The notes under the pieces were generated by a model. That model worked only from the letters and a program-made list of their open reading frames with translations. It was not told the DNA's origin and did not search any database. From contig NZ_JH591189.1 of assembly GCF_000242435.1 (NCBI RefSeq), forward strand, positions 241,849 through 282,263: a stretch of DNA of 40,415 nt, written 5' to 3'. Every line of letters starts with the position of its first letter. Position 1 is the first letter of the stretch. The position numbers were made by a program, and so were the translations under genes. Of this stretch, positions 3,669-28,507 are shown piece by piece. This DNA is from Dialister succinatiphilus YIT 11850. GTDB taxonomy: Bacteria; Bacillota; Negativicutes; Veillonellales; Dialisteraceae.

Positions 3669-3732
3669 CCCGTCATTTCGACGGTCGGAGCGGAGAAATC
3701 TCACGCCGAAGGGAGGAGGCTCCATGGTGGCA
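3669..3732 (-). repeat. Partial inverted copy of the 6121/6333 dispersed repeat
   Basis: The stretch CCCGTCATTTCGACGGTCGG and what follows is the reverse complement of the right part of the repeat at 6190-6260, with a short deletion and several substitutions. A half copy of the terminator-like hairpin (GGGACTGTGAGGAAATGAT, 3571-3589) lies upstream, and a complete hairpin follows at 3764. The whole 3564-3913 interval carries no convincing gene. Confidence 0.75.
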
Positions 3733-26243: not shown

Positions 26244-26310
26244 AGGAAACCATTCGCAGCCAGTTTCCTGTCCGGCATGGGGATACTGCGAATCGCCTCC
26301 ATAGGAAACC
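26244..26310 (+). repeat. Lone unit of the 59-bp repeat
   Basis: AGGAAACCATTCGCAGCCAG with GTTTCCTGTCC following is a diverged relative of the units at 28089-28442. The next AGGAAACC begins at 26303, exactly 59 bp later, though the sequence after it diverges. Confidence 0.75.
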
Positions 26311-28088: not shown

Positions 28089-28442
28089 AGGAAACCCTTT
28101 GCGAACAGTTTCCTGCCTGCCGTGGGAACACGGCGAATCATTGCCATAGGAAACCTTTCGCGAATAGTTTCCCATCTGCCGTGGGAACTTTGGCAATCAT
28201 CACCATAGGAAACTTTTCGCCACCAGTTTCCAGCCCGGCATGAGGGCATTGTGAATCATTGCCATAGGAAACCCTTTGCGAACAGTTTCCTGTCCGCCGT
28301 GGGAACACGGCGAATCATTGCCATAGGAAACCTTTCGCGAATAGTTTCCCATCCGCCGTGGGAACTTTGGCAATCATCACCATAGGAAACCCTTTGCGAG
28401 CAGTTTCCCATCCGTCATAGGAGCAGGGCAAGTCAACTTGTC
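28089..28442. repeat. Tandem array, six units of exactly 59 bp
   Basis: AGGAAAC starts at 28089, 28148, 28207, 28266, 28325, 28384 and (partial seventh) 28443, with no exception to the 59-bp step. Unit 1 matches unit 4 at 57/59 positions and unit 2 matches unit 5 at 58/59, so the array is a duplicated 177-bp trimer. Unit 6 is diverged in its second half. Most units hold GGAAAC-12 nt-GTTTCC; units 1 and 4 also hold GCCGTG-GGAA-CACGGC. The period is not a multiple of three. It fills the 28060-28519 gap up to the tRNA promoter. Confidence 0.9.
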
Positions 28443-28478
28443 AGGAAACGGGTTCACCCATATTTCTCATTTTTCCTC

Positions 28479-28507
28479 TTGACGAAATGGGAGAGATGTA
28501 ATAAAAT
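28479..28507 (+). promoter_or_regulatory. Promoter of the tRNA pair
   Basis: TTGACG (28479-28484), 17-bp spacer, TAAAAT (28502-28507); the -10 ends 12 bp before tRNA-Pro. It begins right after the 59-bp array. Confidence 0.75.

Follow-up and report, generated by a model that had tools for sequence, protein, structure and literature searches.

A tandem array downstream of ruvX belongs to a dispersed, lineage-specific family of intergenic repeats in gut Dialister

The window analyzed here, a stretch of 40,415 nucleotides from Dialister succinatiphilus YIT 11850, carries a tandem array between a RuvX/YqgF-like gene and the promoter-like sequence of a tRNA-Pro/tRNA-Arg pair (table 1). An earlier note on this DNA had described six units with an exact period of 59 bp and no indels, followed by a tRNA promoter, and both observations hold (unit starts at 28089, 28148, 28207, 28266, 28325, and 28384). 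Its reading of the array as a duplicated 177-bp trimer is likewise borne out by pairwise identities of 57/59 between units 1 and 4, 58/59 between units 2 and 5, and 35/59 between units 3 and 6, and every reading frame is interrupted within the array, in line with its view that no repeated peptide is encoded. The window contains seven copies of the spaced palindrome GGAAAC-N10..14-GTTTCC, where shuffles lead one to expect 0.01. The seventh copy is real and forms a separate junction outside the array, at a second locus of the family, with an LptF/LptG-family permease gene on one side and a DUF3084 gene on the other; Dialister sp. UBA1703 carries the repeat in this intergenic gap too.

Table 1. 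Coordinates within the window of the array downstream of ruvX, its neighbors, and the second locus of the family
Feature	Position	Strand
RuvX/YqgF-like gene, upstream of array, 144 aa	27625-28059	+
Tandem array: six complete 47-bp elements plus left-end GGAAAC (last 6 bp of a diverged element)	28090-28449	+
Element 1, GTTTCC-N35-GGAAAC	28108-28154	+
Element 2	28167-28213	+
Element 3	28226-28272	+
Element 4, near copy of element 1	28285-28331	+
Element 5, near copy of element 2	28344-28390	+
Element 6, diverged, right end of array	28403-28449	+
First of six junction palindromes, GGAAAC-N12-GTTTCC	28090-28113	.
Starts of the six junction palindromes	28090, 28149, 28208, 28267, 28326, 28385	
Promoter-like TTGACG-17-TAAAAT of the downstream tRNA-Pro/tRNA-Arg pair	28479-28507	+
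Second family locus: junction palindrome 26245-26268 plus complete element 26263-26309	26245-26309	+

The hairpin GGAAAC-N12-GTTTCC, from which the earlier note built its units, does occur as claimed but is the junction between two neighbors rather than the repeat unit. On our reading of 146 candidate stretches (which include a few chance matches inside genes), the natural unit is a directional element of 47/48 bp, GTTTCC-N35/36-GGAAAC, with inverted ends of 6-8 bp (GTTTCCTG...CAGGAAAC) and the core consensus GTTTCCTGTCCGGCATGGNACCANTGNGNTTCATNNCGACAGGAAAC; with units oriented iteratively, the directional consensus is GTTTCCTGTCCGGCATGG...TTCAT..CGACAGGAAAC. Adjacent elements within arrays are joined by a palindromic 12-bp linker (YNTTYGCRAANR), giving a period of 59/60 bp, and this spacing is kept at nearly all junctions in both species, as the earlier note had supposed for the single array. 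Arrays reach about nine elements, placed head-to-tail, and direction is uniform in 21 of the 21 arrays that hold two or more units. Solo 47-bp elements also exist (loci L013, L024, L025, and L027). Beyond the outermost units about four linker bases persist (AANR adjoining GTTTCC), and the central YGCR is common to junctions only, the outer flanks being devoid of it. It is these solo elements, together with the restriction of the YGCR center to junctions, that identify the hairpin as a product of adjacency. The second hairpin noted earlier, GCCGTG-GGAA-CACGGC, does occur in units 1 and 4, as stated, without being characteristic of the family.

Conservation varies along the element: the junction arms are near-invariant across arrays and across both species (with the caveat that the arms served as the search seed), while the 35-bp core drifts. 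This combination of invariant arms and drifting core suggests selection beyond plain duplication.

The array is one locus of a dispersed, lineage-specific family of intergenic repeats in gut Dialister. In the 2.5-Mb genome of D. succinatiphilus the family occupies about 30-31 intergenic loci on the chromosome, with 1-9 units each. A sequence-only profile of 55 positions, built from 69 oriented units of D. succinatiphilus and UBA1703 and then run against these same genomes, finds at E<=0.001 at least 81 units in D. succinatiphilus and at least 119 in UBA1703 (lower bounds, with 150 candidates scored per genome), and zero units in ten other genomes of the same bacterial family. UBA1703, a 94% complete draft genome, is the nearest named relative compared (RuvX 85% identical). 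Exact matches to GGAAAC-N12-GTTTCC number 43 in D. succinatiphilus and 58 in UBA1703, against 1-2 for a reversed control, and fall to chance level in four other genomes of the genus; carriers are thus two of six genus genomes, and a longer junction palindrome pattern is present in 2 of 380 Negativicutes genomes. The literature searches made brought up no Dialister repeat family. What the finding adds to a common gut genus is an apparently undescribed family of intergenic repeats. The array has no match in phage or plasmid collections, and an origin from either was rejected. The sole match in IMG/VR (L065:644-667) consists of one isolated perfect hairpin plus a second hairpin, with no array, and is probably a chance occurrence or a terminator.

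Other repeats accompany the family. A second dispersed repeat, approximately CGTCATTTCGAG...GAGTCGAGAAATCTCC, replaces an element end and part of the linker inside arrays; it lies beside elements at six loci (L033, L041, L050, L016, L049, and L051), occurs in the window near 3672, 6113, 6247, and 6461, and has no match in the plasmid collection. The composite of element and second repeat has itself been duplicated, three times at L041 and twice at L033. Many places on C1 carry copies of yet another dispersed repeat, about 200-400 bp long (L033:1-504, L045:2804-3200).

Comparison of the two carriers indicates how the arrays change. The ruvX array has six units in D. succinatiphilus and four at the same site in UBA1703, both with a period of exactly 59 bp; in G001, a genome of the genus that does not carry the family, no more than a short gap separates ruvX from the tRNA promoter. 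The two species have a dozen or more loci in common, with flanks 80-98% identical; these shared loci are ancient, and others among them vary as well (L028 with about four elements, L041 with seven plus the second repeat). Units have been duplicated one to three at a time in fixed register, and the N35 block is more alike within arrays (identity 0.69) than between them (0.55), a difference that points to local duplication and homogenization. The earlier suggestion of a recombination product is accordingly upheld on three counts: the duplicated trimer, the same-site difference in copy number, and the greater likeness within arrays. No site was seen that was cleanly empty and bore a target duplication; the counterparts in the other species contain decayed or shorter copies. 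Identity between the species is 97-99% at some shared loci and 80-85% at others (L010/L039, L014/L038, L016/L049, and L018/L048), and this unevenness suggests recent exchange between them. For the carrier clade, the family would offer a natural VNTR typing system.

We consider it likely that the family is a lineage-specific repeat similar to REP, MIRU, or NIME elements, one that has multiplied through tandem duplication and is constrained at the level of DNA rather than of a transcript. Arrays would lengthen and shorten when identical units recombine unequally or slip during replication, with homogenization of the units inside each locus, and spread to new sites would have needed a trans-acting enzyme, possibly since lost; the one candidate tested, the Y1/RAYT transposase (PF01797), is absent from both carriers. 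The constraint would act on element ends and junction as a sequence for recombination, transposition, or protein recognition. Simple independent insertion leaves unexplained why the YGCR center is conserved only at junctions. Two arrays of UBA1703 have between them a gene for an AAA_14/DUF4143 ATPase (L034:891-2093), at a place where D. succinatiphilus has an intergenic array only; the gene does not encode a transposase and is possibly cargo gained by recombination between repeats. A replication-strand bias was also rejected, two arrays of opposite orientation lying 6 kb apart (C1:239 and 245 kb).

A protein-binding array, as the earlier note had proposed among its options, is a possible, unproven reading of the ruvX repeats. 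A genome-wide version would make the arrays clusters of binding sites for a chromosome-organizing protein, the putative site being the 24-bp junction palindrome GGAAAC-YN-TTYGCRAA-NR-GTTTCC, and their absence around the terminus a spatial or timing signal, as for Noc or SlmA sites; we regard this as unlikely, although several features fit. The near-invariant junction arms beside a drifting core, the YGCR center that junctions have and outer flanks lack, and the independence of site orientation from genes all agree with it, as does the chromosomal distribution. The dnaA gene lies at C1:1.214 Mb, with three perfect parS sites at 1.218-1.238 Mb, and the switch in GC skew on C1 falls near 640 kb; around it, C1 245-1036 kb contains zero units at E<1e-4. 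Adding UBA1703 positions (from 20 stretches read, those mapping to read parts of C1) narrows the gap to 245-960 kb, all mapped stretches falling outside it and one set lying at the counterpart of 960 kb, so that the repeat-free zone spans roughly 715-790 kb. There is room for repeats in this gap, since another intergenic repeat (GTCATTTCGAG) is present there, and the Noc (NBS) and SlmA (SBS) sites are depleted near ter (PMC4726725).

The statistics of the gap depend on how clusters are counted and where its edge is set: the chance probability is 0.0001-0.005 for the larger gap with merging of loci within 0-15 kb, and 0.02-0.06 with wider merging or the smaller gap, so that the gap, which was noticed post hoc, loses significance once neighboring loci are merged widely. 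With the origin at 1.214 Mb and the skew switch at about 640 kb, the two replichores would measure roughly 0.57 and 1.9 Mb, unless the assembly contains a misjoin; given replichores so unequal, the position of ter is itself uncertain, and a search for dif gave no convincing site. Against the binding reading also stand the presence of only one ParB_N-domain protein, near parS, with no Noc paralogue; the occurrence of the family in two of six genus genomes, which would be odd for a core cell-cycle system; and the 59-bp spacing, which is a non-integer number of helical turns. The repeat-free zone around the skew switch therefore hints at a role like nucleoid occlusion, on weak post hoc statistics, and is a lead rather than a result. 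Its boldest form is in our judgment very improbable: the junction palindromes would be clustered sites at which a putative DNA-binding protein labels the chromosome away from the terminus, a third answer to the problem of nucleoid occlusion or chromosome organization, unrelated to the other two and spread as a tandem repeat in one Dialister clade. Should terminus avoidance hold, a new chromosome-organizing protein would be implied.

It is also rather doubtful that the repeats are REP/BIME elements proper, spread by a REP-associated tyrosine transposase (RAYT) that has since been lost. REP/BIME sequences are extragenic, present in about 100 copies, and made of imperfect palindromes in regular clusters (PMC2817692). 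The Dialister family matches this description in location, copy number, imperfect palindrome, and regular spacing, and it too forms mosaics with a second repeat. However, no Y1 transposase was found in either carrier (UBA1703 being a 94% complete draft), the consensus AANAGTTTCC...GGAAACTNTT has neither a GTAG nor a CGTC tag at the foot of the palindrome, and all 21 multi-unit arrays run directly head-to-tail instead of alternating as BIMEs do. The family is thereby a good example for examining how REP-like arrays can arise without a RAYT.

The earlier note had further raised a structured RNA, and a transcript-level role between ruvX and the tRNAs, whether as a structured RNA or as a transcription-coupled element (a 3' UTR stabilizer or attenuator), now appears highly improbable. 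Its one attraction, that a single-sequence fold of the array beats shuffles (z -5.5), is expected by construction of tandem inverted repeats. RNAalifold over 69 units predicts zero pairs and hence no shared structure, and in a set of 87 junctions outer pairs never vary and inner positions pair no better, often worse, than permuted columns, with no sign of covariation; a nested 47-bp hairpin gave zero or negative covariation, which was the first sign that two orientations were mixed among the units. Orientation is random with respect to genes: the arrays lie in 26 tandem, 5 convergent, and 4 divergent contexts, and among those between co-directional genes (n = 26), 12 are sense and 14 antisense. 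Arrays thus occur in divergent promoter regions too, and the array has no terminator and no match to an Rfam family. Conservation is free of orientation and operates at the level of DNA. A CRISPR-like array, with the 24-bp palindrome as repeat and 35/36-bp spacers, has compatible lengths but is practically out of the question, refuted as it is by spacers that share a genome-wide consensus (identity 0.55 from one array to another, 0.69 inside an array), and contradicted by the spread over about 30 loci, the solo 47-bp elements, and arrays that end inside the "repeat". Integron attC sites (59-base elements) were rejected because the ends are GTTTCC/GGAAAC, not GTTRRRY/RYYYAAC, with no cassette genes between units.

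The earlier note had called the array of no recognized type; this stands for the sequence, which matches no described family, but not for the organization, which is that of known dispersed intergenic repeats. Of the two outcomes which that note had named as counting against it, a match to a described repeat family and a period varying freely without covariation in the stems, the first did not occur and the second did so only in part, the stems showing no covariation and the period being kept.

The organization of the family is closest to that of MIRU and the neisserial NIMEs. MIRU are tandem units of 46-101 bp at about 40 scattered loci with variable copy number (PMC3914561). The Dialister family similarly comprises 59/60-bp tandem units at about 31 loci with 1-9 units, and copy number differs between the two species (6 versus 4 at ruvX); its sequence is unrelated, however, its units are marked by inverted ends and meet in a palindromic junction, and the orientation of its arrays is untied to neighboring genes. 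In NIMEs, the dRS3 palindrome ATTCCC-N8-GGGAAT alternates with RS blocks of 30-160 bp (PMC3898611). The likeness to Dialister lies in a short intergenic palindrome, variable at its center between inverted ends of 6 bp, that alternates with a short, less conserved block, and in the formation of mosaics with other repeats; unlike NIMEs, the Dialister junction is GGAAAC-N12-GTTTCC, the block is fixed at 35/36 bp, and the dRS3 pattern is absent. The Noc and SlmA sites are dispersed palindromes kept away from the terminus region (PMC4726725); the Dialister family resembles them in being dispersed and palindromic and perhaps in sparing the terminus, and it differs from them in its sequence, in the lack of a Noc paralogue among the proteins found, and in its arrangement as tandem arrays.
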